A DNA stretch of 34,756 nt from an uncultured Flavobacteriaceae bacterium (GTDB lineage Bacteria > Bacteroidota > Bacteroidia > Flavobacteriales > Flavobacteriaceae), in contig CAJQNF010000095.1 in the NCBI GenBank assembly GCA_905479625.1, positions 1 to 34,756 of the forward strand, read 5' to 3'. Positions 4,597-23,717 of this stretch are shown piece after piece. The stretch's first letter is position 1, and every line of letters begins with the position of its first letter. The notes beneath the pieces were generated by a model. That model did no database searches. It saw nothing but the letters and a program-made list of their open reading frames with translations, and was not told the DNA's origin. The position numbers and the translations under genes are program-made.

Positions 4597-4610
4597 GTAA
4601 CAAAAGTTAC
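4597..4610. promoter_or_regulatory. GTAAC-N4-GTTAC operator, site 1 (before the YeeE/YedE pair)
   Basis: A perfect inverted repeat with arms GTAAC and GTTAC and spacer AAAA. Its centre (4603.5) is exactly 32 bp upstream of the centre of a -7-like box at 4632-4639, the same geometry as sites 2 and 3. The site would overlap the -33 region, as expected for a class II activator. The adjacent Crp/Fnr protein is the obvious candidate to bind it (inference). Confidence 0.75.
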
Positions 4611-4631
4611 CTGAAGCGGTCTCGAATAAAT

Positions 4632-4639
4632 TAATTTTA
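4632..4639 (+). promoter_or_regulatory. -7-like promoter element of the YeeE/YedE operon
   Basis: TAATTTTA matches the Bacteroidota -7 consensus TAnnTTTG at five of six defined bases. It lies 32 bp, centre to centre, from operator site 1, and the ATG follows 20 bp later. A weak core with an upstream activator site fits activator dependence. Confidence 0.55.
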
Positions 4640-4659
4640 CGAATTAAGCTTAATACAAT

Positions 4660-5217
4660 ATGGACTTTATTTTACAACCATGGCCTTGGTATGTAGCAGG
4701 ACCCATCATCGCCTTTAGTATGTTCCTGATGTTTTTCTTTGGGAAGAAATTTGGCGTGTCTTCTAACTTAGAGACTGTTTGCGCCATGGGTGGAGCAGGA
4801 AAATTTGTTGATTTTTTTAAATTAGACTGGAGAAAAAATAAATGGAACCTGGTTTTTGTGGTTGGCTTGATTGTAGGAGGGTTTATTTCTGATCAATGGC
4901 TAACCCCTGATGACACAGTTGCAATTAGTACAGAAACGGTTAAAGATTTAGCCGAAATAGGCATTCAAAATGCAGGTGCTAGTTATCTCCCAGATGAAAT
5001 TTTCAGTATAGACGCCATGCTTTCCGTTAAGGGATTCTTAATCCTGATTATTGCAGGAATCTTGGTTGGATTTGGCTCCAGATATGCCGGTGGATGTACC
5101 TCAGGACACGGTATCGTTGGCCTAAGTAGCTTATCGATTGAATCATTTATTGCTGTAGGGGGATTTTTTATCGGAGGACTGATCATGACCTGGCTTATTT
5201 TACCCTATATATTCTAA
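4660..5217 (+). CDS. YeeE/YedE-family transporter, first half (thiosulfate/sulfur-compound uptake)
   Basis: This integral inner-membrane protein of 185 residues has about four to five hydrophobic helices. It carries the family signature YAGGCTSGHGIVGL (about residues 144-157) and an N-terminal segment with another cysteine (VCAMGG). In the full-length YeeE/TsuA thiosulfate transporter, conserved cysteines relay thiosulfate through the membrane. Here the domain is split over two genes, this one and the next, 12 bp downstream. It sits right after the Crp/Fnr gene and operator site 1. The substrate is inferred from the family; sulfide or another reduced sulfur compound is also possible. Confidence 0.85.
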   Translation: MDFILQPWPWYVAGPIIAFSMFLMFFFGKKFGVSSNLETVCAMGGAGKFVDFFKLDWRKNKWNLVFVVGLIVGGFISDQWLTPDDTVAISTETVKDLAEIGIQNAGASYLPDEIFSIDAMLSVKGFLILIIAGILVGFGSRYAGGCTSGHGIVGLSSLSIESFIAVGGFFIGGLIMTWLILPYIF

Positions 5218-5229
5218 ACAAGACTGAAG

Positions 5230-5643
5230 ATGAAATATATCAAATATTTACTGGTAGGCATATTATTCGGAATTACGCTAAGTAAGGCCGAGGTGATCTC
5301 CTGGTTTAGAATTTACGAAATGTTCAAATTACAGTCATTTCATATGTATGGTGTTATTGGATCTGCCGTAGCAATAGGTATAATTTTAATGTATTTATTC
5401 AAAAATGAAACGCTTAAAACCCTTTACGGTAATCCTATTGTCGTTGAACCAAAGAAAAAAGGAATTCCAAGAAATTTAATCGGAGGAATTATTTTTGGTC
5501 TTGGTTGGGCACTTGGAGGATCATGTCCAGGGCCTATGTATATTCTTGTTGGGAAAGGTGTGGTTTCAATCTTGGTTGTCCTTTTTGGGGCACATCTTGG
5601 TGCCTTCCTGTATCATGCCGTAAAACATAAACTTCCACATTGA
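5230..5643 (+). CDS. YeeE/YedE-family transporter, second half (DUF6691 type)
   Basis: A 137-residue membrane protein with about four helices and the second family signature GWALGGSCPGPMYILVG (about residues 92-108). The SCPGP cysteine corresponds to the C-terminal-half cysteine of single-chain YeeE. It is encoded 12 bp after the first-half gene, so the two are almost certainly cotranscribed and form one transporter. No clear terminator follows, and moaA begins 90 bp downstream, so read-through into the Moco genes is possible. Confidence 0.85.
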   Translation: MKYIKYLLVGILFGITLSKAEVISWFRIYEMFKLQSFHMYGVIGSAVAIGIILMYLFKNETLKTLYGNPIVVEPKKKGIPRNLIGGIIFGLGWALGGSCPGPMYILVGKGVVSILVVLFGAHLGAFLYHAVKHKLPH

Positions 5644-5733
5644 TGAAACACCTCATTGTCACTTAATCTCTTAAACGGAGCATTTAGTTAGGCCATTTTC
5701 GTACATTTAGCATCCATTTTGCCATAATATTCC

Positions 5734-6726
5734 ATGAATAAATTAGTAGATAAATACGGTCGTCAAATTACTTACCTGCGCTTGGCAGTCACAGACAGGT
5801 GTAATCTGCGTTGCCAGTATTGCATGCCTGCACATGGTATTGATATCGTCAAAAGGCAAGAATTGCTGACGTATAAGGAAATGTATAGAATTACCCGGGT
5901 TTTAAGTGAATTGGGAGTGGATAAAGTAAGACTAACTGGTGGAGAGCCTTTTGTAAGGAAGGATTTTGTCAATTTTCTGGAGTCTCTTTCGTTTAATAAG
6001 AACCTTAAGGAAATTAATATTACTACAAATGGTGCCCTGATCTCTAAGCATATAGAGGGTCTTGAAAAAATGAAGATCAATGCCGTGAATTTGAGTATTG
6101 ACAGTCTTAACCGAGAAAAGTTTTTTGAAATTACTAGAAGGGATGTATTCCCGCAAGTCTTTCAAACTTATCAAGATCTATTAAAGAGTAATCTCAAACT
6201 AAAACTTAATGTCGTCATTCAATCCGGAGTCAATACCAACGAAATCATTGATTTTATTGAATTGACCAAAGAGGATAAGGTCTCTGTCAGGTTTATAGAA
6301 GAAATGCCTTTTAATGGTAAGGGAATTCGAGAGGTTAAAGAGGTCTGGAATTACAATAAGATCATTAAAACGATCAATTCACATTATGACCAAGTCGAAA
6401 GTTTAGTCTCAAAGAAATCTTCAACTTCCAAAAATTTTAAAATCAAAGACTACAAAGGATCTTTTGGGATCATTCCGGCTTTTACAAGAACAATTTGCAC
6501 TGACTGTAATAGAATCCGAATCACTGCTACTGGCTTGTTCAAGAATTGCCTGTTCGATGATGGGGTTTTTAATATAAAGGAATTTATAAGGAATGGTGCC
6601 AGCGATGAAGAGCTGAAACAAATATTTATATCTACGGTACACAAGAAACCAAAAAATGGTTTTATTGCTGAGGCCAACAGAGGAAGCAACTCCGTTTCCG
6701 AAAGTATGTCAACTATAGGTGGCTAA
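5734..6726 (+). CDS. moaA: GTP 3',8-cyclase (radical SAM, molybdenum cofactor step 1)
   Basis: MoaA converts GTP to 3',8-cyclo-7,8-dihydro-GTP with two [4Fe-4S] clusters. The N-terminal radical-SAM motif is C-x3-C-x2-C (Cys23, Cys27, Cys30, in RCNLRCQYC). The C-terminal cluster motif is C-x2-C-x13-C (Cys255, Cys258, Cys272). The chain ends in the functional Gly-Gly tail (STIGG). The 330-residue length is normal. The moeA ATG follows the stop by 7 bp, giving a tight moaA-moeA-moaC operon. Confidence 0.97.
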   Translation: MNKLVDKYGRQITYLRLAVTDRCNLRCQYCMPAHGIDIVKRQELLTYKEMYRITRVLSELGVDKVRLTGGEPFVRKDFVNFLESLSFNKNLKEINITTNGALISKHIEGLEKMKINAVNLSIDSLNREKFFEITRRDVFPQVFQTYQDLLKSNLKLKLNVVIQSGVNTNEIIDFIELTKEDKVSVRFIEEMPFNGKGIREVKEVWNYNKIIKTINSHYDQVESLVSKKSSTSKNFKIKDYKGSFGIIPAFTRTICTDCNRIRITATGLFKNCLFDDGVFNIKEFIRNGASDEELKQIFISTVHKKPKNGFIAEANRGSNSVSESMSTIGG

Positions 6727-6733
6727 TGAGTAT

Positions 6734-7945
6734 ATGAATAAAAAAGGAACATTAATAGATGTTAATAATGCATTGAGCATTGTGCTGAGGGAAACCGAGT
6801 CTTTTGGCCTGGAAGATATAGATTTCAAGGAATCACTTGGAAGAGTTTTAAGAGAAAATATTGCAGCTGATAGAGAAATGCCCCCATTTAACCGTGTGAG
6901 CATGGATGGTATTGCCATAAAGACTTCCGTTTTCAAATCTGGCAGACGGGATTTTAAAATTGAAAATATACAGGCCGCGGGGAGTGATCAGCTGGTCCTT
7001 GGTAATGAGAATAATTGTATAGAAGCAATGACCGGTGCCATGTTACCTGTCGGTACAGATGCCATTATTCCTTATGAATTGATCAGCATAGAAAAAGGTA
7101 TAGCTCATATTAATTTAGAGGAGGTCCAGTACTTTCAAAATATCCATAAGAAAGGATTAGATCGACAAAAAAATGAGCTTCTGGTTCCACAAAACACAAA
7201 AATTTCATCGGCAGAAATAGGGGTTTTTGCTACGGTTGGAAAGTCAAGAGTTCAAGTGTCAACCTTACCAAAAGTAGCCATCGTATCGACTGGAGATGAA
7301 CTTGTTGAAGTGAATCAATTTCCCGCCCCCTATCAGATCAGAAAAAGTAACGTTCATACGCTGTATTCACTTTTAAAAAGATTTGAAATTACCCCTGATT
7401 TGTATCATATTAGTGACAGTAAAGAGCAATTGAGAGAAAAAATCAACTCCCTTTTGGAGAGTTATGATGTACTTATGTTCAGTGGCGCGGTGAGCAAAGG
7501 AAAATTTGATTTTTTACCTGAAATTCTTAATGAACTAGGAGTAGTTAAACACTTTCACAAGGTCCGTCAAAGACCTGGAAAACCTTTCTGGTTTGGAAAA
7601 AAAGGCCAAACAACGATTTTCGCCTATCCCGGAAACCCGGTATCAACATTTGTAAGTTGTCTTAAGTACTTTGTGCCATGGCTGCAAAAAAGTCTGCAGT
7701 TAAGTTTTGAAAATCAAAACTTTGCCGTATTGGGTGAAGATTTTAACTTTAAACCGGCACTGACCTATTTTCTACAAGTTAAGATCATCAACAAAGAAGG
7801 AAGACTTATGGCTTTTCCAGATCCGGGAAATGGCTCTGGAGACTTGGCAAACTTATCTAATAATGATGGCTTTTTGGAATTACCATCAGATAGAACTAGT
7901 TTTGAAAAAGGAGAAGTTTTTCCATTAATTCAGTATAGATTTTAA
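6734..7945 (+). CDS. moeA: Molybdopterin molybdenumtransferase
   Basis: MoeA inserts molybdate into adenylylated molybdopterin. The sequence shows RVSMDGIAI (the MDGYA motif), MTGAMLPVGTDAIIPYE, the MoCF-fold segment VAIVSTGDELVE, SGAVSKGKFDFLPE, VRQRPGKPFWFG and YPGNPVSTFVSC, all in family order over about 404 residues. ATG 6734 is chosen over an in-frame GTG at 6719 because the GTG lies inside moaA and the ATG gives the usual N-terminus. It is followed 10 bp later by moaC. No mogA/moaB partner, which would supply adenylylated molybdopterin, is present in this window. Confidence 0.96.
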   Translation: MNKKGTLIDVNNALSIVLRETESFGLEDIDFKESLGRVLRENIAADREMPPFNRVSMDGIAIKTSVFKSGRRDFKIENIQAAGSDQLVLGNENNCIEAMTGAMLPVGTDAIIPYELISIEKGIAHINLEEVQYFQNIHKKGLDRQKNELLVPQNTKISSAEIGVFATVGKSRVQVSTLPKVAIVSTGDELVEVNQFPAPYQIRKSNVHTLYSLLKRFEITPDLYHISDSKEQLREKINSLLESYDVLMFSGAVSKGKFDFLPEILNELGVVKHFHKVRQRPGKPFWFGKKGQTTIFAYPGNPVSTFVSCLKYFVPWLQKSLQLSFENQNFAVLGEDFNFKPALTYFLQVKIINKEGRLMAFPDPGNGSGDLANLSNNDGFLELPSDRTSFEKGEVFPLIQYRF

Positions 7946-7955
7946 ACGCCTTGAT

Positions 7956-8432
7956 TTGAATAAATTTTCACATATAGATAAAGATAACAAACCAAAAATG
8001 GTCAATGTTATTGACAAAAAGATCACTAAAAGACGGGCCGTGGCTCAGGCAAAAATGTTTTTGGGTAAAGAGATTGTTACATTGCTTAACGGCTCTGAAA
8101 TCCACACCAAAAAAGGGCCTGTTTTTCAAACTGCCATCATCGCTGGAGTCCAGGCGGTAAAAAAAACTTCAGATCTCATACCTATGTGTCATCCTCTTCC
8201 GCTTGATGGCATCGATATTGATATTGAATTTCTAAATAAAGAATCCATCAATATTCTATGCACTGTTGAAATGGAAGGGAAAACAGGAGTTGAAATGGAA
8301 GCTTTAACAGGGGCCAGTATTGCTGCATTAACCGTATATGATATGTGTAAGGCTATTTCCCAAAAAATGGTGATTCAAGACATTATGGTGATGAAAAAAA
8401 CCGGGGGTAAGAGTGATGTCATTAATGGCTAA
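7956..8432 (+). CDS. moaC: Cyclic pyranopterin monophosphate synthase (TTG start)
   Basis: MoaC converts the MoaA product to cyclic pyranopterin monophosphate in the cytoplasm. The core motifs are DLIPMCHPLPL and VEMEALTGASIAALTVYDMCKA, with a C-terminal MKKTGGKS. The start is TTG at 7956, since the first ATG (7998) would remove the conserved N-terminal segment FSHIDKDNKPKMV. The gene is 10 bp after moeA. A rho-independent terminator at 8447-8474 closes the operon. Confidence 0.96.
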   Translation: MNKFSHIDKDNKPKMVNVIDKKITKRRAVAQAKMFLGKEIVTLLNGSEIHTKKGPVFQTAIIAGVQAVKKTSDLIPMCHPLPLDGIDIDIEFLNKESINILCTVEMEGKTGVEMEALTGASIAALTVYDMCKAISQKMVIQDIMVMKKTGGKSDVING

Positions 8433-8446
8433 AAGACAAAAAAAAT

Positions 8447-8474
8447 AACCAGTAAAGTTTCCCTTACTGGTTTT
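8447..8474 (+). terminator. Rho-independent terminator after moaC
   Basis: A perfect 9-bp stem, AACCAGTAA and TTACTGGTT, with an 8-nt loop. It is preceded by an A-run and followed by a short T-run. It lies 15 bp after the moaC stop and could also serve the opposing lipoprotein gene. Confidence 0.7.
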
Positions 8475-8524
8475 GCTGGGCATCAAGAGTATTATTCGGT
8501 TAAAACTCTAAATAATTTCTGTTT

Positions 8525-9064
8525 TTATAATTGAATAATAACTTTTGAGTCTAATGTTAATTCTATGAAGAAGTCCATACCCATATCATTGCATAAAGCA
8601 CTTCCGGAGTAAACAACATTAACTGTCTGGTTCGCTTTGAGTGCTTCAGAAATTCTATGAATTTCTTCAATTGCTTTAATTTCATAGATAATCTGATTAT
8701 CAGCAGTCGATTTTACTACAAAGGAGTTTTCTAAACAAACCTTGTTTGCAACAGACAGCGATCCATTAACTTCACCTAACGGGTCTCCGTTGAAATTTAT
8801 TATTCTATAAGTCAATCGATTAATCCGTACTTCCCTAATTTTGTTAGAATAATGCTTGGTCTCTTCATTATTTATGGTCAAAGTATTCTTGAACATAAAT
8901 GACATCCAGTCGCCATTTGTTCCATCCAGTTCGATGGGTATGACTTCAACTTGTTTTACATCAAATTCATATTTAGGACCATCAAGATCAAGCTCATCTT
9001 CTCCACAAGACAAAAAAGTAAAAAACAGACAACTCATACAAAGTGTAAATAATGTCAATTTCAT
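8525..9064 (-). CDS. Hypothetical secreted lipoprotein
   Basis: A 179-residue protein that I do not recognise. It has a typical SPII signal with a lipobox ending FLSC (Cys20) followed by GEDELD, so it is probably lipid-anchored and exported. The mature part is a predicted beta-rich domain of about 150 residues with two further cysteines (VCLENS and SALCNDMG) that could pair in the periplasm. ATG 9064 is chosen because an in-frame ATG at 9115 would place 17 non-signal residues before the lipoprotein signal. It stands alone, convergent to the moaC operon, and its link to the Moco genes is unclear. Confidence 0.75.
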   Translation of the reverse strand: MKLTLFTLCMSCLFFTFLSCGEDELDLDGPKYEFDVKQVEVIPIELDGTNGDWMSFMFKNTLTINNEETKHYSNKIREVRINRLTYRIINFNGDPLGEVNGSLSVANKVCLENSFVVKSTADNQIIYEIKAIEEIHRISEALKANQTVNVVYSGSALCNDMGMDFFIELTLDSKVIIQL

Positions 9065-10529: not shown

Positions 10530-10542
10530 GCGGCTGATTACC

Positions 10543-11625: not shown

Positions 11626-11670
11626 CCGCATGAGTGCATCGTCACTTAAAGTAAAAAAAATCTTGTGTCC

Positions 11671-13440
11671 ATGTCTGAACCGCTAACATTCTATCAGCAG
11701 GAAAAAAAACGATTCGAAGAACAAAGGGATCTGCTTAGAAAAAAGATACATATTTTTAGTATACTGCGTTTAGGATTATTTCTCCTTACGTTCCTGGCTG
11801 TTTATTATGCATATCCGAATAAACAGTTGCTTGCAGTTGTTTTTATCTCGAGTATTGTTGGCTTTGTTTTTCTTGTACTAAGGTACCAATCTCTTGTTGC
11901 AGCCAGAAAACTTTGTGAACAATTGATCCGCATTAACGAAATAGAAATAGATGCTTTAAATGGTGAATACAGTTCTCTCCCTGAGGGAGCTGAGTTTATT
12001 GATTCGAAACACTTTTATAGCAACGACATAGATTTATTTGGCAAGGGTTCATTTTTTCAATATATGAACAGAACCGCTACCACAGCAGGAAGGAGTGCTC
12101 TGGCTGCATTGCTTCTTGAAAACGATCCTTATCAAATTGTATCTCGGCAAGAGGTCATCAAGGAACTCTCTGAAAAAGTTAACTGGAGGCAACGTTTTAT
12201 GGCGCTGGCCAAAATGGTTAGGGTTGAGGTTGATCATACAACCATTATTTCATGGATTCATGGCTACAAGTCATTTCTTCCATCAATCATGACATACTTG
12301 CCTTTTGTTTTTACTTCAGCATCCATCCTTTTTACAGTGCTTTTAATTTTTAATTTGGTTTCTGTTTTCCTTCTTGTCATCTGGTTTTTTATAGGACTAT
12401 TTATTACTTTTCCCTATTTTCAGAGGATCAACCATCTTTATTTGGATGCGGGCCTAATCAAGGATACATTCAAACAATATCATAGTTTGTTACAAGAGAT
12501 TGAAAACCTGCCAATCAAATCAACATTAGCCTTAAACGAACAGGATAAGATCAAATCTTCCAAGAAAAAGGCCTCGAGCATTTTCAAAGAATTTTCAAAA
12601 ATTCTGGATGCCTTCGATCAAAGAAACAATATGCTTTTTGGTATTCTGGGTAATGGGTTTTTTCTTTGGGACATCCGTCAAACTTCCAAGATCGATGCAT
12701 GGGTAAAAACTTATCAATTTCAGGTAGAGAACTGGTTCGAAGTTATCGCTTATTTCGACGCTCAGATATCCTTGTCCAACTACGCATACAACCATAGGGA
12801 TCATGACTATCCTGAAATAATTCAGAACGACTTTGTTATTGATGCAGTTGGGTTGGGTCATCCCTTATTGGACAAAAAAATTAGGATCGATAATGACTTT
12901 TCCATACAAAAGAAAGATTTTCATATTACCACCGGAGCGAATATGGCTGGGAAAAGCACCTTTCTAAGGACCATTTCTCTAGGACTGGTAATGGCTAATA
13001 TAGGATTACCCGTTTGTGCAAAAAAAATGCGCTATTCGCCCATCAAATTAATTACAAGTATGAGAACTTCTGATTCACTGGCTGAGGAAAGTTCTTATTT
13101 CTATGCGGAAATTATGAGGCTTAAATTCATTGTAGAGCAAATGGAACAAGAAAAATACTTTATCATTCTCGATGAAATTTTAAAAGGCACCAATAGTAAA
13201 GATAAAGCAATAGGGTCGAGAAAGTTTGTTGAAAAACTTGTGAAATCAGGTTCTACCGGGATCATTGCTACTCATGATTTGAGCCTTTGCGACATAGAAA
13301 AGATCTACCCTCAGATCCATAACCAATACTTTGATGCAAAAATCAAAAACGAAGAGCTCTTTTTTGATTATAAATTAAAAGACGGAATCTGTACAAATAT
13401 GAACGCCTCTTTTCTCTTAAAGAAAATGGACATTATTTAA
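11671..13440 (+). CDS. Membrane-associated MutS-like ATPase
   Basis: A 590-residue protein with a C-terminal MutS-type ABC ATPase. It has TGANMAGKSTF (Walker A, Lys at about 428), the MutS signature region with SLAEESSYFYAEI, FIILDEILKGTNSKDK (Walker B), and an ATHD His switch. Ahead of it are two hydrophobic hairpins (about residues 30-75 and 205-255) predicted to cross the membrane. The mismatch-recognition domain of MutS1 is missing, so this is not the housekeeping repair protein; the substrate is unknown. ATG 11671 is used rather than GTG 11665. Its stop codon abuts the convergent moaE stop with no base between them. Confidence 0.82.
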   Translation: MSEPLTFYQQEKKRFEEQRDLLRKKIHIFSILRLGLFLLTFLAVYYAYPNKQLLAVVFISSIVGFVFLVLRYQSLVAARKLCEQLIRINEIEIDALNGEYSSLPEGAEFIDSKHFYSNDIDLFGKGSFFQYMNRTATTAGRSALAALLLENDPYQIVSRQEVIKELSEKVNWRQRFMALAKMVRVEVDHTTIISWIHGYKSFLPSIMTYLPFVFTSASILFTVLLIFNLVSVFLLVIWFFIGLFITFPYFQRINHLYLDAGLIKDTFKQYHSLLQEIENLPIKSTLALNEQDKIKSSKKKASSIFKEFSKILDAFDQRNNMLFGILGNGFFLWDIRQTSKIDAWVKTYQFQVENWFEVIAYFDAQISLSNYAYNHRDHDYPEIIQNDFVIDAVGLGHPLLDKKIRIDNDFSIQKKDFHITTGANMAGKSTFLRTISLGLVMANIGLPVCAKKMRYSPIKLITSMRTSDSLAEESSYFYAEIMRLKFIVEQMEQEKYFIILDEILKGTNSKDKAIGSRKFVEKLVKSGSTGIIATHDLSLCDIEKIYPQIHNQYFDAKIKNEELFFDYKLKDGICTNMNASFLLKKMDII

Positions 13441-13866: not shown

Positions 13867-13873
13867 AAATAAT

Positions 13874-14207: not shown

Positions 14208-14221
14208 GTAACTAATGTTAC
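14208..14221. promoter_or_regulatory. GTAAC-N4-GTTAC operator, site 2 (before the molybdo-oxidoreductase operon)
   Basis: A perfect inverted repeat with arms GTAAC and GTTAC and spacer TAAT. Its centre (14214.5) is exactly 32 bp upstream of the centre of the TAAATTTG box at 14243-14250. It lies between moaD (minus) and the fused iron-sulfur/NrfD gene (plus). Orientation to the -7 box favours control of the plus-strand operon. Confidence 0.78.
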
Positions 14222-14242: not shown

Positions 14243-14250
14243 TAAATTTG
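14243..14250 (+). promoter_or_regulatory. -7 promoter element of the molybdo-oxidoreductase operon
   Basis: TAAATTTG is a full match to the Bacteroidota -7 consensus TAnnTTTG. It implies a transcript start near 14253-14256 and a leader of about 90 nt before the ATG at 14348. No -33 TTTG is seen; the operator occupies that position. Confidence 0.65.
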
Positions 14251-14347
14251 AGAGATAGTAGTCGGGAAACCTTTATAAAACCCATTACTTTTTCTTTATT
14301 ACCAGATTAAAAATAGGAATTCTCATTAATATGAAGCCATTTCACGT

Positions 14348-15964
14348 ATGAAATATGGATTTATTATTGACAACAGAAAGTGTATCGGTTGTCATGCGTG
14401 TACCACTGCCTGCAAAAGTGAACACGACGTACCTATAGGGGTGAACAGGACCTATGTAAAACAAGTTGAAAAAGGAGTTTTTCCAAATACCAGAAGAATT
14501 TTTTCAGTGATGAGGTGCAACCATTGTTCGGATGCCCCCTGTGTTGAAATTTGCCCTGTGGAGGCCTTATATACCAGAGACGATGGTATTGTTGATTTTG
14601 ACAATAACCGTTGCATCGGATGTAAATCATGCATGCAAGCCTGTCCTTATGACGCCCTCTACATCGATCCTGATAATAATACAGCGGCGAAATGTAATTA
14701 TTGCGCCCACAGAGTTGAGGTCGGAAGAGCGCCCGCTTGCGTGGATGTGTGCCCTGAACATGCGATTATTGCCGGAGATATGGAAAATCCTGAAACAGAG
14801 ATTTCCATGTTACTCGCAAGAGAACAGGTCATGGTCAGAAAACCAGAGAAAGGAACAAAACCGAACTTATTCTATATTGATGGAGATTATCAGTCACTAG
14901 ATCCTGATAATACATCTAAATCAGGGCCTGGCCTTTGGAATTCTCAAGCCAGGGGTGTTGGTCATTATGCCAAAGCTGCTGAAAAGCTGATGCATTCCAA
15001 TGACGATATAAATTTATTACAAATGAGTATTGATAATGAGCTGCAGTCTGCTTATCAAAAAAAGGAAACTGAAAATCCGAACTATATTGACGTACTTAAT
15101 GGCAAAGCCAGAAGGGTTTATGATACGCCTGACAAAGGGATTCTATGGGGCTGGGAAGTCTCCGCTTATGTGACGACCAAAGCCATTGCTGCCGGTGCAT
15201 TTTTAGTGCCTCTTTTAGCCATAATGCTGGGTTATGAAATTTCTAATACAACTAAATTAATTTCCGTAGGATTATCATTAGTCTTTTTAGGATTAACCGG
15301 ACTGTTTTTGGTTATGGACCTTGACAGACCCGACAGGTTTCTTAACGTACTACTAAGACCACAATGGAATTCCTGGCTTGTAAAAGGAGGCTACACTATT
15401 TCCATATTTGGACTTTTAATGACCGTTTGGGGGGCCGCAACATTTTTTGAATGGAATATTCCTGAAAATTTACTTCTTGGATTAACGGGTTTCTTTGGAA
15501 TCATCCTTGCGATCTATACTGCATTCCTTTTCGCACAAGCCAAGGGAAGAGATTTTTGGCAAAGTCCTACGCTTCCTTTGCATATGCTCGTTCATAGTGT
15601 TCTTGCAGGAGCTGCTGTTTTTTCAATTTTAGCAGTTGTTTTACAGCCAGAGGGATGGATGGAAACTTTGGGAACCATTATCAGTATTTCTTTGGTTGTC
15701 AATCTTCTTACCCTAGTATCTGAATTGACAATTACGCACCCTACCAAAGCAGCTAAAAAAGTAGTTACCATGATTCTTAAAGGACAGTATCAGGGATTAT
15801 TTTGGTTCGGAACTGTAGTTGTAGGAAATATCCTTCCTCTTATCCTGATCCAGTTCTTTCCTGGCACTTTAAGCCTTGCTGTAACAGGAGTATTGATCAT
15901 TATTGGCATATATATAACTGAAAAAATTTGGGTAGAGGCTCCGCAAAGAATTCCCCTTGCCTAA
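14348..15964 (+). CDS. Fused four-cluster ferredoxin / NrfD-type membrane subunit (SoeB-SoeC-like)
   Basis: Residues 1 to ~165 form a DmsB/PsrB/SoeB-type ferredoxin with four cysteine groups: CIGCHACTTAC, CNHCSDAPCVEIC, CIGCKSCMQAC, and CNYC...CVDVC. After a linker of about 100 residues comes an NrfD/DmsC-like domain with about eight membrane helices (about 268-530), including the segment MDLDRPDRFLNVL. The protein would take electrons from the catalytic subunit encoded 52 bp downstream and pass them to quinone. There is no Tat signal, so the soluble part should face the cytoplasm, as in SoeABC sulfite dehydrogenase. Fusion of B and C subunits in one chain is notable. It is the first gene after operator site 2. 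Polysulfide or thiosulfate reductase subunits are the alternative. Confidence 0.87.
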   Translation: MKYGFIIDNRKCIGCHACTTACKSEHDVPIGVNRTYVKQVEKGVFPNTRRIFSVMRCNHCSDAPCVEICPVEALYTRDDGIVDFDNNRCIGCKSCMQACPYDALYIDPDNNTAAKCNYCAHRVEVGRAPACVDVCPEHAIIAGDMENPETEISMLLAREQVMVRKPEKGTKPNLFYIDGDYQSLDPDNTSKSGPGLWNSQARGVGHYAKAAEKLMHSNDDINLLQMSIDNELQSAYQKKETENPNYIDVLNGKARRVYDTPDKGILWGWEVSAYVTTKAIAAGAFLVPLLAIMLGYEISNTTKLISVGLSLVFLGLTGLFLVMDLDRPDRFLNVLLRPQWNSWLVKGGYTISIFGLLMTVWGAATFFEWNIPENLLLGLTGFFGIILAIYTAFLFAQAKGRDFWQSPTLPLHMLVHSVLAGAAVFSILAVVLQPEGWMETLGTIISISLVVNLLTLVSELTITHPTKAAKKVVTMILKGQYQGLFWFGTVVVGNILPLILIQFFPGTLSLAVTGVLIIIGIYITEKIWVEAPQRIPLA

Positions 15965-16016
15965 TAAAAAAAATCAAAGACTTTAAAAAGAGTCTTGAAC
16001 TTATAAATACATAAAC

Positions 16017-18920
16017 ATGGGCTATAAAAAAGCATCCTTTATAGAAAAAATGGCTGAGAAAATTGGTCTAATTCCTGATCTTCATAAAGAGGGTTATCAG
16101 GAACATGATGCTGACATGCGTCATTTTACTGATGAAGAAGTGGCTGAAATGTATGAAAACTTTCCTCCTCCTGAAAAATGGAATGATTGGAAAGAATATG
16201 ACCCAAAGGCGTGGCCAAAAAAAAAGAAGACCAATTATCAAATTGTACCAACCACATGTTTCAATTGTGAAAGCGCTTGTGGTTTAACGGCTTTTATTGA
16301 TAAGTCTTCAGGCGAGATCAAAAAATTTGAAGGCAACCCCTATCATCCTGGTAGTCGCGGGAGAAACTGTGCGAAAGGACCTGCTACGATCAATCAGGTA
16401 ACTGATCCGGATCGTATATTATTTCCCCTTAAACGCAAGGGAAAACGCGGAGATGGTGAGTGGGAAAGAATTTCCTGGGATGAAGCGTTGGATACCATTG
16501 CGGACAGGATCAGAAAAGCATTAAAAGAAGAAAGGCATAATGAGATAGCCTATCATGTGGGAAGACCTGGTCATGAGGGGTTTATGAATTGGGTATTACC
16601 GGCATGGGGTATTGATGGCCATAATTCACATACCAATATCTGCTCCTCAGGAGCACGGTTTGGCTACAACTTGTGGTACGGCTATGACAGGCCTTCCCCA
16701 GATCATGCAGAAGCGAAATTCATCCTGTTAATTTCAGCACATTTGGAATCAGGACATTATTTTAACCCTCATGCGCAAAGAATCATAGAAGGTAAGATGA
16801 AAGGAGCCAAACTGGCCACCATGGATCCCAGGTTATCCAATACAGCTTCTATGAGTGACTATTGGTTACCATCTTATCCGGGAACGGAAGCCGCTGTTCT
16901 TTTAGCGATGGCTTTGATCATTCTTCAAGAAAAACTATACAATAGATCCTATCTTGAAAACTGGACGAACTGGCAGGAATATTTAGCTGCGAAACACCCT
17001 GATAAAGAGGTTGTTTTTGAAAATTATATTGAGGCCATGAAGGAGGAATACAAAGAATTCACTCCTGAGTTTGCCGAAAAAGAATCTGGCGTAAAAGCAG
17101 AAATGATCCGTGAGATCGCAGTAAAGATCGGTGAAGCAGGTGAGCGATTTGCCAGCCATAACTGGCGAAGTGCCGGAGCTTCCAACCTAGGAGGCTGGGC
17201 GGTTGCTCGTTGTCTTCATTTTCTCACAGTGCTAACGGGTGCTGTAGGAGCAAAAGGAGGTACATCTCCAAATTCCTGGAACAAATTCAAGCCGGAAGTA
17301 CCCAATCCGCCAAAGCCTCAGAAAAAATGGAATGAATTACATTTTCCAAAAGAATATCCTATGGCCTTTTTCGAAATGAGTCAGTTATTGCCTCATTTTC
17401 TTAAGGAAGGCAGAGGAAAAATGGATGTATACTTTTCAAGAGTATTCAACCCTGTCTGGACCTATCCTGATGGTTTTACATGGATGGAAATGTTTATGGA
17501 CGAATCAAAATTCGGCCTGCACACTGCCTTAACCCCAACCTGGAATGAAACGGCATTTTTTGCGGATCTGGTATTGCCTATGGGTCTAGCTCCAGAACGG
17601 CATGATATCAATTCCTACGCGACACATGGAGGTACCTGGGTAGCCTTTAGGCAACCTGTGTTAAGGGAAGCTGCCAGAAGAAATGGAAAACCTGTTGAAT
17701 ATACCTATGAAGCCAATCCTGGAGAAGTTTGGGAAGAAGATGAATTCTGGATTGAATTGAGTTGGAGGATTGACCCGGATGGAAGCATGGGAATTCGCAA
17801 ACACTTTGAATCTCCACAACGCCCCGGGAAAAAAATAACGATCGAAGAATACTATCAATACATTTTTGAAAGAATCAAAGGTTTGCCTGCTGCTGCAAAA
17901 AAAGAAGGTATATCCGAATTTGAATATATGTCAAAATACGGGGCCTTTGAAATCGAAAAAGGAGAATCTTACAAAATGAACGAAAACCTTTTGAGCAAAG
18001 AGCAATTGAAAGGATCCGAAGTAGATAAAAAAAATGGCGTTGTAAGAAAAAACGGGAAAGATATTGGGGTTATGATCAACGGAGAAGCCATGGTTGGTTT
18101 TCCTACGCCATCAAGAAAAAACGAATTCTATTCTCAAACCATGGTAGACTGGAACTGGCCAGAATATTCAACGCCCACTTATATCAAAAGTCATATCCAT
18201 AATGACGTATTAGACAAATCCAAAGGGGAATATGTACTGGTTCCTACTTTTAGGCTCCCAACTCTGATACATTCAAGGTCCGGAAATGCAAAATGGCTTG
18301 TGGAAATTTCAAATAGAAACCCAATCTGGATGCATCCCGAAGATGCTGCCAAATGGGATTTTAAAACAGGCGATCTGGTGAAACTGAATACAGACATCGG
18401 CTATTTTGTGGATAAAGTGTGGGTTACCCAATCTATGAAACCGGGTGTCGTAGCTTGTTCGCACCATATTGGCAGATGGAGAAGAGAGCAAGATACTGTT
18501 GGAAATCGATGGGCTACCAATACCGTTGACATTGAAAACAAATCATCTGGACAATGGAAAATGAGCACTAAAAATGGTATTAAACCTTTCGATTCAACTG
18601 ATAAAGATTCTAAAAGAATCTTTTGGAAAGATGGGGGGGTACATCAGAACATAACCCATGCTGTTCACCCCGACCCAATCAGTGGTATGCATACCTGGCA
18701 CCAACGGGTAAGAATCGAAAAACCAGGAGCAGATGATCATTATGGTGATATTTTTGTCGATACAAATAAATCACATGAAATATACAAGGAATGGTTGGCA
18801 ATGACTCGTCCCGCACCTGGACCAGATGGTCTTAGAAGACCTCTTTGGTTCAAAAGAGCTTTTAAGCCGGATGAATCAACCTATTATATAAAAGACGTTA
18901 AAAACGACCCTAAAAAGTAG
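16017..18920 (+). CDS. Molybdopterin oxidoreductase catalytic subunit, SoeA-like (candidate sulfite dehydrogenase)
   Basis: A 967-residue DMSO-reductase-superfamily enzyme binding bis-MGD and one [4Fe-4S] cluster. Cluster cysteines are Cys81, Cys84, Cys88 (CFNCESAC) and Cys118 (RNCAKGP). Cys209 in SHTNICSSGARFG is the likely Mo ligand, as in the polysulfide/thiosulfate reductase and SoeA branch. No twin-arginine signal is present; the N-terminus is a hydrophilic ~75-residue extension, so the enzyme should be cytoplasmic. Length and cytoplasmic location fit SoeA better than the exported PhsA, PsrA or TtrA. With the sulfur genes around it I infer sulfite oxidation to sulfate, but the substrate is not proven by sequence. 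It pairs with the fused BC subunit 52 bp upstream. Confidence 0.85.
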   Translation: MGYKKASFIEKMAEKIGLIPDLHKEGYQEHDADMRHFTDEEVAEMYENFPPPEKWNDWKEYDPKAWPKKKKTNYQIVPTTCFNCESACGLTAFIDKSSGEIKKFEGNPYHPGSRGRNCAKGPATINQVTDPDRILFPLKRKGKRGDGEWERISWDEALDTIADRIRKALKEERHNEIAYHVGRPGHEGFMNWVLPAWGIDGHNSHTNICSSGARFGYNLWYGYDRPSPDHAEAKFILLISAHLESGHYFNPHAQRIIEGKMKGAKLATMDPRLSNTASMSDYWLPSYPGTEAAVLLAMALIILQEKLYNRSYLENWTNWQEYLAAKHPDKEVVFENYIEAMKEEYKEFTPEFAEKESGVKAEMIREIAVKIGEAGERFASHNWRSAGASNLGGWAVARCLHFLTVLTGAVGAKGGTSPNSWNKFKPEVPNPPKPQKKWNELHFPKEYPMAFFEMSQLLPHFLKEGRGKMDVYFSRVFNPVWTYPDGFTWMEMFMDESKFGLHTALTPTWNETAFFADLVLPMGLAPERHDINSYATHGGTWVAFRQPVLREAARRNGKPVEYTYEANPGEVWEEDEFWIELSWRIDPDGSMGIRKHFESPQRPGKKITIEEYYQYIFERIKGLPAAAKKEGISEFEYMSKYGAFEIEKGESYKMNENLLSKEQLKGSEVDKKNGVVRKNGKDIGVMINGEAMVGFPTPSRKNEFYSQTMVDWNWPEYSTPTYIKSHIHNDVLDKSKGEYVLVPTFRLPTLIHSRSGNAKWLVEISNRNPIWMHPEDAAKWDFKTGDLVKLNTDIGYFVDKVWVTQSMKPGVVACSHHIGRWRREQDTVGNRWATNTVDIENKSSGQWKMSTKNGIKPFDSTDKDSKRIFWKDGGVHQNITHAVHPDPISGMHTWHQRVRIEKPGADDHYGDIFVDTNKSHEIYKEWLAMTRPAPGPDGLRRPLWFKRAFKPDESTYYIKDVKNDPKK

Positions 18921-18960
18921 AATAAATTTTATATTTGGCCGTAAAAGTTGAATTTAAAAA

Positions 18961-19998
18961 ATGAAAATGAAAAAAACTGCTTATTTCATGGTTGCATTGG
19001 CCATAGCATCTTGTAACAACGAGCCAAAAGATTACGTTTCTATTGCCGGAAATATAACCGATAAGAACAGCGATTCTGTAGTCATTAGAAGTCGAACTTA
19101 TTCCAAAACAATTCCTGTTAATGAGGATGGTTCGTTCAGTGATACCCTTAAGGTGGAAACAGGAGAATACTCCTTTTATGATGGGGGTGAATCTACTTCT
19201 GTCTTTTTAAAAAATGGATTTGATCTTGCAATGACTTTGGATACTAAAATGTTTGATGAAACGGTTAAATTCACTGGAAACGGTGCTGAACACAGTAATT
19301 TCTTAGCTGAAAAATCCTTGATGCAAGAACGTTTACTTGACCTGGATGAGCTTATGGGATTAGACTCTGTGGCTCGTGAAGAAAAGTTTGTTGCAATTAA
19401 AGATGAACTCACTAACTTTTATAATTCAGATAAAAATATTGATACGTCAATTGTAAACCGTAGTCTAAAAAGTATAGATCCTACGCTTGATTCATATAGA
19501 AGGTACATCAATCAAGATTTAGCGATGAAAAGGGATCTGCCTAAAGGAGCTCCCTCTCCTTTGTTTGTAGATTATGAAAATATTACTGGCGAGAAAACTT
19601 CCCTTACCGATCTTGAAGGAAAATATGTATATATAGATGTTTGGGCCACCTGGTGTGGGCCGTGTAAGGCTGAGATTCCTTCATTAAAAAAAGTTGAGAA
19701 ACAGTACCATGGAAAAAATATTGCTTTTGTAAGTATGTCTATAGACGATGATAGATCACATGGAGGATCATGGGAAAAGGCCAATGAAGATTGGAAAAAA
19801 ATGGTCAAAGAAAAAGAATTGGGAGGCATCCAAATTTTTGCTCCAAAAGGATGGCAATCTGAGTTTGTTCAAAACTACAAGATCAATGGAATTCCACGTT
19901 TTATTCTTGTTGACCCAAAAGGTAACATCGTAAGTGCAAGCGCACCTAGACCTTCAAGTGAAGAACTTATCAAACTCTTTGACGAGGAAAACATTTAG
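18961..19998 (+). CDS. TlpA/thioredoxin-like disulfide reductase, lipoprotein
   Basis: A 345-residue protein with an SPII signal (lipobox AIASC, Cys18), an N-terminal beta-rich domain resembling the DUF4369 region common in Bacteroidota, and a C-terminal thioredoxin fold with WATWCGPCKAEIPS (Cys232 and Cys235). It is probably anchored in the periplasm and reduces disulfides or persulfides. It starts 40 bp after the SoeA-like gene with no terminator between, so it is likely in the same operon. That suggests a link to the sulfur pathway, though this is by position only. Confidence 0.85.
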   Translation: MKMKKTAYFMVALAIASCNNEPKDYVSIAGNITDKNSDSVVIRSRTYSKTIPVNEDGSFSDTLKVETGEYSFYDGGESTSVFLKNGFDLAMTLDTKMFDETVKFTGNGAEHSNFLAEKSLMQERLLDLDELMGLDSVAREEKFVAIKDELTNFYNSDKNIDTSIVNRSLKSIDPTLDSYRRYINQDLAMKRDLPKGAPSPLFVDYENITGEKTSLTDLEGKYVYIDVWATWCGPCKAEIPSLKKVEKQYHGKNIAFVSMSIDDDRSHGGSWEKANEDWKKMVKEKELGGIQIFAPKGWQSEFVQNYKINGIPRFILVDPKGNIVSASAPRPSSEELIKLFDEENI

Positions 19999-20066
19999 GC
20001 GTATTAAAAAGTGATTATTAGAAGGAATAATCTTCCTTCAACAAGATATAATATGATAATTTGATG

Positions 20067-20104
20067 CATTCAATGTTTTGAAAACATTCTCAAAACATTG
20101 GATG
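20067..20104. repeat. Long hairpin upstream of the first SulP gene
   Basis: A 15-bp stem with one G-T pair; the arms are 20067-20081 and 20090-20104, and the loop is AAACATTC. The inner 11 bp (CAATGTTTTGA / TCAAAACATTG) are perfect. No T-run follows at once, so it is not a standard terminator. It could end the upstream operon or shape the leader of the SulP transcript. Confidence 0.6.
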
Positions 20105-20109
20105 ATCAT

Positions 20110-20132
20110 GTTAAAAGATTCACTTTTTTAAC
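20110..20132. repeat. Second, smaller hairpin before the first SulP gene
   Basis: GTTAAAA pairs with TTTTAAC across a 9-nt loop, ending 15 bp before the SulP ATG. Together with the hairpin just upstream it makes a tandem structure; a role in initiation or termination is only a guess. Confidence 0.35.
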
Positions 20133-20147
20133 CAAGTACTTTAGTTA

Positions 20148-21869
20148 ATGCTACAAAGAATATTTCCATTTTTGATCTGGTTGCCCTTGGCAAAAAAGTC
20201 ATGGAAGGATGATTTAATTGCAGGATTGACAGGAACAATTATTGTAATTCCACAGGCTGTAGCTTTCGCCATTATAGCAGGTTTACCTCCGGTTTATGGT
20301 TTTTATACCGCAATGATTACACCAATTATTGCCGCATTATTTGGTTCTTCCTATCATTTAATATCGGGTCCTACTACCGCAATTTCCATTGTTGTTTTTG
20401 CTACTGTGAGCGAAATGGCTGATGCCACTACAGATATAGAAAATTATGTTGCCTTAACACTTGTGCTGACCTCTATGGCAGGTTTAATTCAATTTGCCAT
20501 GGGATTAGCCAGAATGGGTAAGCTGGTAAACTTTGTTTCGCATTCAGTCATTATTGGTTTTACTGCCGGGGCAGGGGTGCTGATTGCCTTTAAACAACTG
20601 AAACATGTATTTGGTCTCGAAGTAGAAAGAGGAAGTTCGTTTTACACAACTGTGAAAACAATAGTTTCAAATATAGATCAGACGAATTGGTATGTTTTTG
20701 CGGTAGCCTTAGGAACTATGCTCATCGCTATTGTGGTTAAAAAATTTATTAAACCGCTTTCAAGATTTTATATGCTTATTGCGATGGTACTTGGTAGCGT
20801 TCTTGCCTATTCATTAGGGGGAGAGGCAAATGGAATAGAGAATGTTGGAAAAATACCCTCCAATTTACCTCCTTTTCGCGTTCCCGCTTTTTCAATATCT
20901 AACATACAGGAGCTGAGTACAGGTGCCCTTACACTGGCTTTGCTGGGATTGATTGAGGCAGTTGCGATCGCCAGATCTATTGCCTTGTCTTCTCATCAGA
21001 GAATTGACGGTAACCAGGAATTTAAAGGACAGGGCTTATCCAATATAATTGCCAGTTTCTTTTCAAGCTATATGGGATCTGGATCCTTTACAAGATCTGG
21101 AGTCAATTATCAGGCTGGTGCTAAAACCCCCATGTCGGCCGTATTTGCCGCTATTTTTCTAATGGTTGTTTTGTTATTGTTCTCACAATACGCTTCCTAT
21201 CTTCCAAAATCAGCTATGGGAGGAATCATTTTACTCGTAGGTTATAACCTGATTGACTTTCATCATATCCAACAAGTGGTCAAAAGCAGCGGAAGGGAAC
21301 TCATCGTTTTAGGAACTACCCTTTTTGGGGCCTTGTTCTTTGAATTGGAAACAGCTTTGTTCTCAGGTATTGGGCTTTCTTTATTCTTTTATTTGGAAAA
21401 AACCGCCAAACCGAATATTGCCATTCTTGGTACGACAAAGACGCATAGGTTCATTAATATTATCAGAGATCCGGATGTTAAAGAATGCCCTCAACTTAAA
21501 ATTGTTCGTCTTGATGGCTCCATATATTTTGGTGCCCTTGAAGTAGTTTCAGAATTTTTTGCCAATCTATATGAAAAAGGAGATGTAAAACATGTGCTAA
21601 TTATTGCAAAAGGAATCAATTTTATTGATTTAGCTGGAGCGACATGGCTTTCATATGAGGCCAAAAAGTGGCAAGATAATGGAGGAGGTATGTATTTTAG
21701 TGGTTTAAAGATCGTCAGTCAGCAAATCCTTAAAAAAGGAGGCTTTCGTGATGAAATTGGTGAAGAGAATTTTTACCCAGACAAACCAACTGCTATTCGT
21801 GAGATCTTCGCTAAGCTAGATAAAAACATTTGTGAGAATTGTAAAGTTCGTATATTTCACGAATGTTAA
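20148..21869 (+). CDS. SulP-family anion transporter with STAS domain (sulfate or related), copy 1
   Basis: A 573-residue inner-membrane transporter of the SLC26/SulP family. The N-terminal transport domain has AGLPPVYGFYTAMI, SGPTTAISIVVF and the family segment GSGSFTRSGVNYQAGAKTPMS. A C-terminal cytosolic STAS domain spans about residues 445-560. The usual phospho-acceptor motif of STAS proteins reads FIDLAGATWL here, with no Ser at that site. The tail is unusual: it ends with three cysteines (CENC...HEC). It lies 149 bp after the TlpA gene and 55 bp before a paralogue. Sulfate or sulfite is the likely substrate from context; bicarbonate is the main alternative for this family. Confidence 0.87.
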   Translation: MLQRIFPFLIWLPLAKKSWKDDLIAGLTGTIIVIPQAVAFAIIAGLPPVYGFYTAMITPIIAALFGSSYHLISGPTTAISIVVFATVSEMADATTDIENYVALTLVLTSMAGLIQFAMGLARMGKLVNFVSHSVIIGFTAGAGVLIAFKQLKHVFGLEVERGSSFYTTVKTIVSNIDQTNWYVFAVALGTMLIAIVVKKFIKPLSRFYMLIAMVLGSVLAYSLGGEANGIENVGKIPSNLPPFRVPAFSISNIQELSTGALTLALLGLIEAVAIARSIALSSHQRIDGNQEFKGQGLSNIIASFFSSYMGSGSFTRSGVNYQAGAKTPMSAVFAAIFLMVVLLLFSQYASYLPKSAMGGIILLVGYNLIDFHHIQQVVKSSGRELIVLGTTLFGALFFELETALFSGIGLSLFFYLEKTAKPNIAILGTTKTHRFINIIRDPDVKECPQLKIVRLDGSIYFGALEVVSEFFANLYEKGDVKHVLIIAKGINFIDLAGATWLSYEAKKWQDNGGGMYFSGLKIVSQQILKKGGFRDEIGEENFYPDKPTAIREIFAKLDKNICENCKVRIFHEC

Positions 21870-21924
21870 AAACTCTTTTTTTTTCTTGTTAAGAGGAATT
21901 CATCTCATTTATTTCTAACAGTTT

Positions 21925-23658
21925 ATGCATATAAAACAGCATATTCCCATTTTACAATGGCTGCCAAATTATAAAAGAAGCTGGTTAAAGAATGATCTAT
22001 TCGCTGGTATGACCATTGGTGTCATTCTAATTCCTCAAGGAATTGCCTATGCCATCATTGCTGGTCTTCCTCCAATTTATGGACTTTATACGGCGATGAT
22101 CCCGCAAATCGTTTATGCGATTTTAGGAACTTCAAGACAACTTGCTGTTGGACCCGCCGCTATGGATTCATTGATCGTAGCTGCAGGAATTAGTGTGCTT
22201 GCGGGCATAGGATCAGAACACTTTATAGTTTTAGCTGTGCTGCTCGCATTTATGGTTGGTTTTTTTCAAGTGATATTTGGTCTTTTCCATCTCGGTTTTT
22301 TAGTTAATTTTTTATCGAAGCCTGTTATAAGCGGTTTTACTACAGGTTCTGCCATTATCATTGGTATGAATCAATTTGGAAATCTTTTTGGACTGGATTT
22401 AGATCGGAGCAATCAAATACAGACTTTATTGCTGGAAATGAGTCATACATTTTCAAACGTACATTTGCCAACCACACTCATTGGAATAGTATCCATTGTA
22501 TTGATCTTTGGTATTAAAAAAATCAATAAAAAAATCCCTGCTGCATTGATCGTTGTGGTTCTCGGTATTCTAGTCGTTTATGCTTTTCAGCTTGATCGTA
22601 AAGGGATTACTATTTTAGGGGAGATTCCGAGAGGACTCCCAGAGTTTGTGATTCCTACCTTTGATATGGCTTTTATGGAGGAGATTTCAGGACTTGCTTT
22701 AACTCTGGCGCTTATCGGCTTTATGGAAGCCATCTCTATTGCTAAATCCATTGAAGTTAAGCACAATAATTATCGCGTAGATGCCAATAAGGAATTAATC
22801 GCCTTAGGTTTTGGAAATATGGTCGGATCCTTCTTTCAAACCTATCCTGCAACAGCAGGATTTGCCAGAACAGCTGTGAATGACCAATCAGGGGCAAAGA
22901 CCCCACTTTCGTCACTTATAGCCGCATTTATTATAGCTTTATCTTTATTATTTCTGACTCCCGCTTTTTTCTTTTTGCCAAAAGCTGTGCTTGCCGCCAT
23001 AATTATTGTTGCCGCATTCGGCCTTTTGGATTTTTCAATGCCCAAAAATTTGTTGAGCTATAACCGTCGGGATCTGATCATTTTGAATAGTACATTGCTT
23101 ATCACAATCTTTGTAGGAATTAAGGAAGGAATCCTTTTTGGGATAATTCTTTCTCTTGTGATGCTGATCTATAAATCAACAAAGCCTCATATGGCTGTTC
23201 TAGGAAATATCCCGGGCACCCATTTTTATAGAAATATAAATCGGTTTGATGAGGTAGTCATTCAGGAAGAAATATTGATTGTGAGATTTGACGCACAATT
23301 GTATTTTGCAAATACCCAATACTTCAAGGATAAACTGAAAGAATTTGCATTGGAAAGAGGCCCCGCCCTCAAATTACTCATTATTGATGGCGAAAGCTTA
23401 AATGCGCTTGACAGCAGCGCTATTTATGCCCTCGAAGAAGTACATGATTATTTTACATCAAAAAATATTACCATTGTTTTTACCGGGCTGAAAGGTCCCG
23501 TTAGAGATACCATGGTGAAATCAAAACTCATGAAAAAAATTCGGTACGATCATTGCTTTATGAGTATACAAGAAGCTGTTGATTGCTACAAAGAAAATTG
23601 CTTTGAGCTACCCAAAGGGTATAGTTTTCAGGAGTATACGAAACAATCAAATCGTTAA
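21925..23658 (+). CDS. SulP-family anion transporter with STAS domain, copy 2
   Basis: A 577-residue paralogue of the preceding gene with the same order of motifs: AGLPPIYGLYTAMIPQ, VGPAAMDSLIVAAG and TAGFARTAVNDQSGAKTPLS. Its STAS domain (about residues 445-560) keeps the DSSA motif in LNALDSSAIYAL. The two copies are clearly diverged, so the duplication is not recent. It is probably cotranscribed with copy 1. Operator site 3 begins 16 bp after its stop codon and serves the next gene. Confidence 0.87.
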   Translation: MHIKQHIPILQWLPNYKRSWLKNDLFAGMTIGVILIPQGIAYAIIAGLPPIYGLYTAMIPQIVYAILGTSRQLAVGPAAMDSLIVAAGISVLAGIGSEHFIVLAVLLAFMVGFFQVIFGLFHLGFLVNFLSKPVISGFTTGSAIIIGMNQFGNLFGLDLDRSNQIQTLLLEMSHTFSNVHLPTTLIGIVSIVLIFGIKKINKKIPAALIVVVLGILVVYAFQLDRKGITILGEIPRGLPEFVIPTFDMAFMEEISGLALTLALIGFMEAISIAKSIEVKHNNYRVDANKELIALGFGNMVGSFFQTYPATAGFARTAVNDQSGAKTPLSSLIAAFIIALSLLFLTPAFFFLPKAVLAAIIIVAAFGLLDFSMPKNLLSYNRRDLIILNSTLLITIFVGIKEGILFGIILSLVMLIYKSTKPHMAVLGNIPGTHFYRNINRFDEVVIQEEILIVRFDAQLYFANTQYFKDKLKEFALERGPALKLLIIDGESLNALDSSAIYALEEVHDYFTSKNITIVFTGLKGPVRDTMVKSKLMKKIRYDHCFMSIQEAVDCYKENCFELPKGYSFQEYTKQSNR

Positions 23659-23674
23659 AAAGTGGAAGTATCCG

Positions 23675-23688
23675 GTAACAAGTGTTAC
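23675..23688. promoter_or_regulatory. GTAAC-N4-GTTAC operator, site 3 (before the CstB-like gene)
   Basis: A perfect inverted repeat with arms GTAAC and GTTAC and spacer AAGT. Its centre (23681.5) is exactly 32 bp upstream of the centre of the TAACTTTG box at 23710-23717, identical to sites 1 and 2. With a start point near 23720 the operator is centred around -39, overlapping the -33 region. Confidence 0.78.
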
Positions 23689-23709
23689 ATATGATTATTC
23701 CCCTTTCAC

Positions 23710-23717
23710 TAACTTTG
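23710..23717 (+). promoter_or_regulatory. -7 promoter element of the CstB-like gene
   Basis: TAACTTTG is a full match to TAnnTTTG. The ATG follows 22 bp later, giving a short leader. Confidence 0.68.

Follow-up and report, generated by a model that had tools for sequence, protein, structure and literature searches.

The question raised by this locus is why an identical palindrome, GTAAC-N4-GTTAC, occurs three times in one stretch of flavobacterial DNA, and whether the regulator gene directly in front of the first copy encodes the protein that reads it. The stretch, hereafter the window, is the whole 34,756-nucleotide contig CAJQNF010000095.1 of an uncultured Flavobacteriaceae bacterium (GenBank assembly GCA_905479625.1). 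Sea water and sediments commonly harbour Flavobacteriaceae, and we know of no description of how reduced-sulfur metabolism is controlled in this family. The reading that our analysis favours, at a probability of about 0.83, is that a class II-type Crp/Fnr activator uses the palindromes as operators to control genes for the metabolism of sulfide, sulfane sulfur and sulfite, and that this activator is most likely the product of the gene at 3958-4593; we infer binding, activation, the direction of control and the enzyme functions. The operators and the -7 boxes that follow them are:

4597..4610, plus strand: operator site 1, GTAACAAAAGTTAC, exact match, spacer AAAA
4632..4639, plus strand: -7 box of site 1, TAATTTTA, one base off, 32 bp from site 1 centre to centre
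14208..14221, plus strand: operator site 2, GTAACTAATGTTAC, exact match, spacer TAAT, also in the same-genus genome G025
14243..14250, plus strand: -7 box of site 2, TAAATTTG, TAnnTTTG-type
23675..23688, plus strand: operator site 3, GTAACAAGTGTTAC, exact match, spacer AAGT, also in the same-genus genome G025
23710..23717, plus strand: -7 box of site 3, TAACTTTG, TAnnTTTG-type

An earlier sequence-only reading of this DNA had described the three perfect palindromes with these positions and spacers, which our exact matching reproduced; 100 dinucleotide-shuffled versions of the window contained no copy. It had also stated that few should arise by chance, and the independent-base expectation for the window is indeed 0.04. 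All three palindromes are intergenic and, by the positions of open reading frames (ORFs) and by Pfam labels, stand before sulfur genes, as had been proposed. The box is a full match at two sites and one base off at site 1, again as described, and the gap from palindrome to box is 21 bp at every site (32 bp centre to centre). The Crp/Fnr gene does lie immediately before site 1, its ORF ending at 4593. In the whole draft genome (2,671,614 bases in 151 contigs, 84% complete) the window sites are the only exact copies. With one mismatch allowed, this genome holds 50 sites (3 exact and 47 imperfect) against 211 for the reversed control, and one of the 47, at 25066, falls within the MBL-rhodanese gene. 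When the palindrome and TAnnTTT were searched together with up to two mismatches, the whole genome gave 11 matches against 32 in the reversed control at gap 21, the window sites alone being free of mismatches, and 11 against 34 at gap 22. Since these relaxed scans fall below their control, further imperfect sites in the genome itself are indistinguishable from chance.

The pattern was followed through relatives in 33 regulator-anchored loci (338,626 bp) chosen without the motif, with the window locus and contained loci excluded. Among all 5-bp arms at spacers of 0-10, GTAAC at spacer 4 ranked top with 28 copies, while the 59 other letter orders of GTAAC averaged 0.2 copies at the same spacer. 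All except one of the 28 lie outside ORFs of at least 100 amino acids (aa), though such ORFs make up 86.5% of the bases; the exact palindrome is present in 16 of the 33 loci. For 29 distinct palindromes in loci L016-L065, window site 1 included, a TAnnTTT box follows at gap 21 in 11 cases and at gap 22 in 16, with at most two at any other gap between 0 and 45.

We then define a boxed site as the exact palindrome followed by TAnnTTT at 21-22 bp, with the reversed pattern as control. Boxed sites occur in 148 of 199 family genomes (198 genera), with 457 sites against 24 for the control, counts that ignore relatedness. Their presence tracks that of a homologue of the window regulator (Fisher p 8e-18 to 6e-22): 145 of 167 genomes with a homologue at E<=1e-20 have a boxed site, as do 3 of the 32 without one, and at E<=1e-50 the figures are 140 of 153 versus 8 of 46 (p=6e-22). 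Scattering through coding DNA, which the sequence-only reading had named as a refuting outcome, was rare, 5 of 145 family sites lying inside an ORF of at least 150 aa. Its fixed 32-bp spacing holds in the window, the genus and near relatives, while family-wide 33 bp is commoner: with gaps of 21 and 22 searched, 126 of the 145 sites have a gap of 22 bp and 19 one of 21 bp. Near relatives of the window (L258-L278) use the 21-bp gap and most family sites the 22-bp gap, a one-base shift between activator site and promoter. A centre-to-centre distance of 32-33 bp would fit an activator centred near -41.5, the class II Crp/Fnr-type layout that had been suggested. The comparisons support the earlier reading on its operator, on the near-fixed spacing to the -7 box, on the sulfur-gene targets and on the adjacent Crp/Fnr gene as the regulator.

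Orthologous promoters give a finer view. In the same-genus genome G025 all three sites are kept, with the same genes downstream and the 21-bp gap. Site 2 there overlaps a palindrome shifted by nine bases and carrying one mismatch, which places three half-sites in a row (L047:1691-1713). Lutimonas halocynthiae (96%) and Lutimonas saemankumensis (93%) come nearest among named relatives, so that the window is probably Lutimonas DNA; on the strength of these and other named members, the family scanned above is taken to be Flavobacteriaceae. Among the 28 named loci examined, out of 80 retrieved, 17 have yeeE after the regulator gene; site 1 is exact in 8 of these, has one mismatch in 4 and two in 1, and is lost in 4. 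The 12 with at most one mismatch have a box-like match at gap 21 (relaxed matching, gaps 20-23 inspected), and among them the central four bases vary while the arms persist.

The genes of the window that bear on the proposed regulon are the following:

3958..4593, plus strand: Crp/Fnr-family regulator, 211 aa (P0001); Pfam cNMP_binding and HTH_Crp_2 above cut-off, homologue alignment
4660..5217, plus strand: YeeE/YedE-type sulfur transporter, first half; Pfam Sulf_transp, weak TsuA similarity below cut-off
5230..5643, plus strand: YeeE/YedE-type sulfur transporter, second half; Pfam DUF6691 and Sulf_transp
5734..8432, plus strand: moaA, moeA and moaC, molybdenum-cofactor genes; profile matches
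14348..15964, plus strand: fused 4Fe-4S / NrfD subunit of a molybdo-oxidoreductase; profile matches
16017..18920, plus strand: molybdopterin oxidoreductase, 967 aa, DMSO-reductase superfamily; profile matches
18961..19998, plus strand: TlpA/ResA-like thioredoxin-fold protein; profile matches
20148..23658, plus strand: two SulP-family anion permeases; profile matches
23740..25161, plus strand: MBL-fold protein with two rhodanese stretches (persulfide-dioxygenase/CstB-like); profiles, best PDB matches 3tp9 and 3r2u
25223..26242, plus strand: rhodanese, then a Tll0287-domain protein; profile matches

The moaA, moeA and moaC genes are possibly co-transcribed with the yeeE genes upstream. Inspection of the N-terminus of the molybdopterin oxidoreductase revealed no twin-Arg motif. 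Amid the molybdenum-cofactor genes lies a gene for a MutS-domain-V protein (11665-13440).

Both domains of the regulator score above cut-off (PF00027 39.1 bits, PF13545 42.2 bits), which places it in the Crp/Fnr superfamily. Its structure model has a mean predicted local distance difference test (pLDDT) of 87.9 and a predicted template-modelling score of 0.66, and all 50 PDB matches listed by a fold search are Crp/Fnr-type or putative members (TM 0.47-0.69). The recognition helix reads R183-V-V-V-S-R188, and Cys78 is the single cysteine. Helix R-V-V-[VI]-[ST]-R and Cys78 recur in 61 of the 62 distinct homologues found in loci, the exception being the more distant L052 protein, which scores 109 bits, has E at position 181 and lacks such a cysteine. 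This protein (L052:1947-2579, helix S-R-E-A-I-S-R) offers a natural contrast for a Glu/Val operator rule. In the final alignment of 58 homologues, from which L052, L089 and L127 (low score) and L154 (fragment) were dropped, R183, V184, V185 and R188 are invariant. Cys78 is conserved in 58 of 58, Cys84 in 45 and Cys85 in 49. Cys78 might be a sensor of a reduced-sulfur or thiol signal; this remains a guess because the model is unreliable around its loop (mean pLDDT 73 for residues 71-80 and 57 for residues 81-90).

The predicted targets were surveyed for the 145 sites, which come from 54 genomes (100 regions around the matches listed first, up to the last 8 rows of the list, plus the window); genes were labelled from the window proteins and from a Pfam scan of a single representative of each type. 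A sulfur-compound gene is the first labelled gene within 400 bp at 76 sites, namely MBL-rhodanese (26), TauE (17), rhodanese (6), SulP (6), YeeE (5), SQR-like (5), sulfite-oxidase-like (5), a second SQR-like type (2), DsrE (2), YgaP-type (1) and the window FeS/NrfD gene (1). The SQR-like label, for both types, is our own naming, the main Pfam match being Pyr_redox_2. Other first genes encode TolC (14), peroxiredoxin/thioredoxin types (10), cytochrome bd (3), Tll0287 (3), di-haem peroxidase (2), DUF983 (2) and the regulator itself (1). The predicted targets are not confined to sulfur compounds: the site is also carried by genes of TolC/HlyD/RND efflux, of cytochrome bd and of peroxiredoxins and thioredoxins. 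Of 61 sites more than 30 kb from a listed regulator or on another contig (which may still be near it, the genomes being drafts), 16 precede sulfur-compound genes and 11 precede TolC-type genes, the commonest labelled far target (L105:1-3506, L123, L147, L179). At L105, TolC is followed by HlyD and RND genes; an exporter is a puzzling target for a regulator of sulfur genes. In L189 (2435-3463) a boxed site stands before a SoxA/TsdA-type cytochrome c gene that may encode a thiosulfate dehydrogenase, and fatty-acid-hydroxylase-like proteins after boxed sites in two genomes (L138:3689-4564, L192:2693-3208) are odd company for a sulfur regulon.

We propose that a dimer of the 3958-4593 protein would read GTA-N8-TAC through its NtcA-like helix (Arg183, Val184, Arg188). 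The dimer would sit about 40 bp upstream of the start, in place of a -33 element, and would bring RNA polymerase carrying the primary sigma factor of Bacteroidota to the TAnnTTTG promoter. Genes switched on in this way would be the YeeE/YedE sulfur importer, perhaps also the molybdenum-cofactor genes, the SoeABC/PsrABC-like molybdo-oxidoreductase with its SulP permeases, and the MBL-rhodanese persulfide-handling genes. The signal may be reduced sulfur or a thiol, our guess being that it is sensed through the conserved Cys78. A bolder extension, which we offer tentatively and consider rather doubtful, would make the protein a Flavobacteriaceae-wide activator sensing persulfide or sulfane sulfur via Cys78, assisted by Cys84 and Cys85 in most homologues, in the loop corresponding to the CRP cAMP site, and the master switch by which the family controls how sulfide, sulfane sulfur and sulfite are detoxified and oxidized.

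Several observations weigh against an activator of sulfur genes encoded at 3958-4593. The genome total of three exact copies equals the independent-base expectation of 3.05, so that what is non-random is the clustering on one 35-kb contig, the intergenic position and the boxes, not the total. No exact palindrome occurs in 17 of the 33 regulator-anchored loci; an exact boxed site is missing from 13 of the 153 genomes that have a strong homologue and present in 8 of the 46 that lack one. Genome G146 has no exact boxed site with a regulator 76% identical, and G003 (70%) and G119 (73%) have yeeE without a site, their listed sites preceding TolC genes or sitting in a 402-aa ORF. Retention in orthologous promoters, expected from the sequence-only reading, holds for all three sites in G025 and, with at most one mismatch, for site 1 in 12 of 17 relatives; it fails in the four that lost the site, three of them Aureibaculum, and is poor in the one with two mismatches. 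In the order outside the family we counted 7 sites against 7 for the control in 127 genomes, a single one of the 15 that have a homologue at E<=1e-50 carrying a site, and in the class outside the order 33 against 20 in 115 genomes. Outside the family, genomes G211, G212 and G252 have a site near the homologue, before YeeE, SulP and MBL-rhodanese-like genes; the site-regulator association there is weak. As for targets, the 400 bp after 34 of the 145 sites contain no labelled gene, and 14 sites precede TolC-type genes. The sulfur regulon of the earlier reading is backed by the 76 sulfur-gene sites and broadened by the efflux, cytochrome bd, peroxiredoxin and thioredoxin genes.

The operators could instead be read by another Crp/Fnr protein of the cell, or by that protein and the window regulator both. 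Such a protein exists on contig C65: it is 56% identical to the window regulator, its helix is R-V-V-V-T-R, and about 2 kb from its gene a one-mismatch palindrome, with a counterpart in G025, precedes an SQR/FCSD-like gene. We regard this as unlikely, since the 3958-4593 gene shares its contig with every one of the three exact sites and is immediately followed by one of them, the linkage is kept in G025 and, for site 1, in 8 of 17 other relatives, and the C65 palindrome is inexact, with no box scoring at least 5/6 within 60 bp. The assignment of the adjacent gene as regulator is thus favoured by linkage and co-occurrence and weakened by the second homologue; with nearly the same helix in both proteins, identity rests on linkage. 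At the C65 locus the imperfect palindrome is GTGACATAAGTTAC (L046:4754-4767; gene at L046:3418-4656; G025 counterpart L048:9433). A further Crp/Fnr-like palindrome, TGATTTAAATCA, stands between the imperfect one and a TAT[AC]TTTG box, and two regulators may therefore share this promoter.

Repression by the same protein has a slim chance: Crp/Fnr proteins can repress, and NtcA does so at some promoters, where its site is downstream of the -35 box, as excerpted from PMC3898017, whereas class II activators bind where the present sites lie, at a near-fixed 21-22 bp ahead of the -7 box and on the -33 position. Slimmer still is the chance of an HcpR2-type regulon for nitrosative stress in which the sulfur genes are incidental members. 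HcpR2 of most Clostridium, Bacteroides, Thermotogales and Treponema is assigned exactly GTAACnnnnGTTAC in an excerpt of PMC1274295, which also gives Pro at residue 181 (Ser or Gln in three species), where the present family has Val. Moreover, the 84%-complete genome has no match to the hcp model PF03063, which itself matches 5 of 14 control genomes, and Prismane/Hcp appears in none of 20 representative downstream genes scanned with Pfam. We did not accept HcpR2 membership on account of the absent hcp and Val181, the operator nonetheless being identical. Chance or composition, finally, accounts for three exact copies in 2.67 Mb and yet is negligible as an explanation given 457 boxed sites versus 24 in 199 genomes and arms that are conserved where centres are not. 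It was rejected on the shuffles, control counts, gap distribution, regulator-anchored loci and orthologous site 1.

Taking the palindromes as operators of the 3958-4593 activator, a simple exact pattern (palindrome, 21-22 bp, TAnnTTT) predicts the regulon in about three quarters of the sampled family genomes, and any gene of unknown function that follows such a site becomes a candidate for a sulfur-related or thiol-stress role. We know of no experiment on this regulon. A description of it was not found in the open-licence literature, a weak negative given that the wording 'Crp Fnr' may miss spellings with a slash. A Crp/Fnr regulon is a known kind of system; what is new, as far as this literature was searched, is a sulfur regulon that spans the family and whose operator and promoter geometry are defined. 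The letters of the operator had appeared before, as the consensus published for HcpR2 in 2005.

By sequence, the best PDB match of the window regulator is 3dv8, a Crp/Fnr protein of Eubacterium rectale (E 9e-16), followed by NtcA. 3dv8 shares a cysteine at the Cys78 position and differs in its helix, S-H-R-E-V-I-T-R; to our knowledge it has neither a described function nor a described operator. An FNR-type cysteine cluster for an Fe-S centre is absent from the window regulator, which has one cysteine. With E. coli CRP the protein shares the fold and the two-fold symmetric half-sites, while it scores 47.3 against a cut-off of 266 with the CRP model and has Val in place of Glu181. In E. coli CRP, a change of Glu181 to Val is reported to alter which base is preferred at the corresponding operator position, and we take GTAACN4GTTAC to be the CRP operator with its inner G changed to A. 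The CRP consensus is given as TGTGA-N6-TCACA in an excerpt of PMC1274295, in which Rodionov (2005) also correlates CRP residues 180 and 181 with operator bases. HcpR2, as described there, shares the operator consensus and differs in its targets and at residue 181, Pro in most HcpR2 and Val in 58 of 58 of the window family. NtcA is ranked first by NCBIfam, yet the window regulator scores 49.9 against the NtcA cut-off of 244.95, and the targets here are sulfur genes. According to an excerpt of PMC3898017, NtcA binds GTAN8TAC at about -41.5, with a TAN3T -10 box downstream, in a class II layout. That GTA-N8-TAC is contained in GTAACN4GTTAC, a box likewise lies downstream, and the NtcA helix, R-V-T-V-T-R in our alignment, follows the same R-V-x-V-x-R pattern as that of the window regulator.

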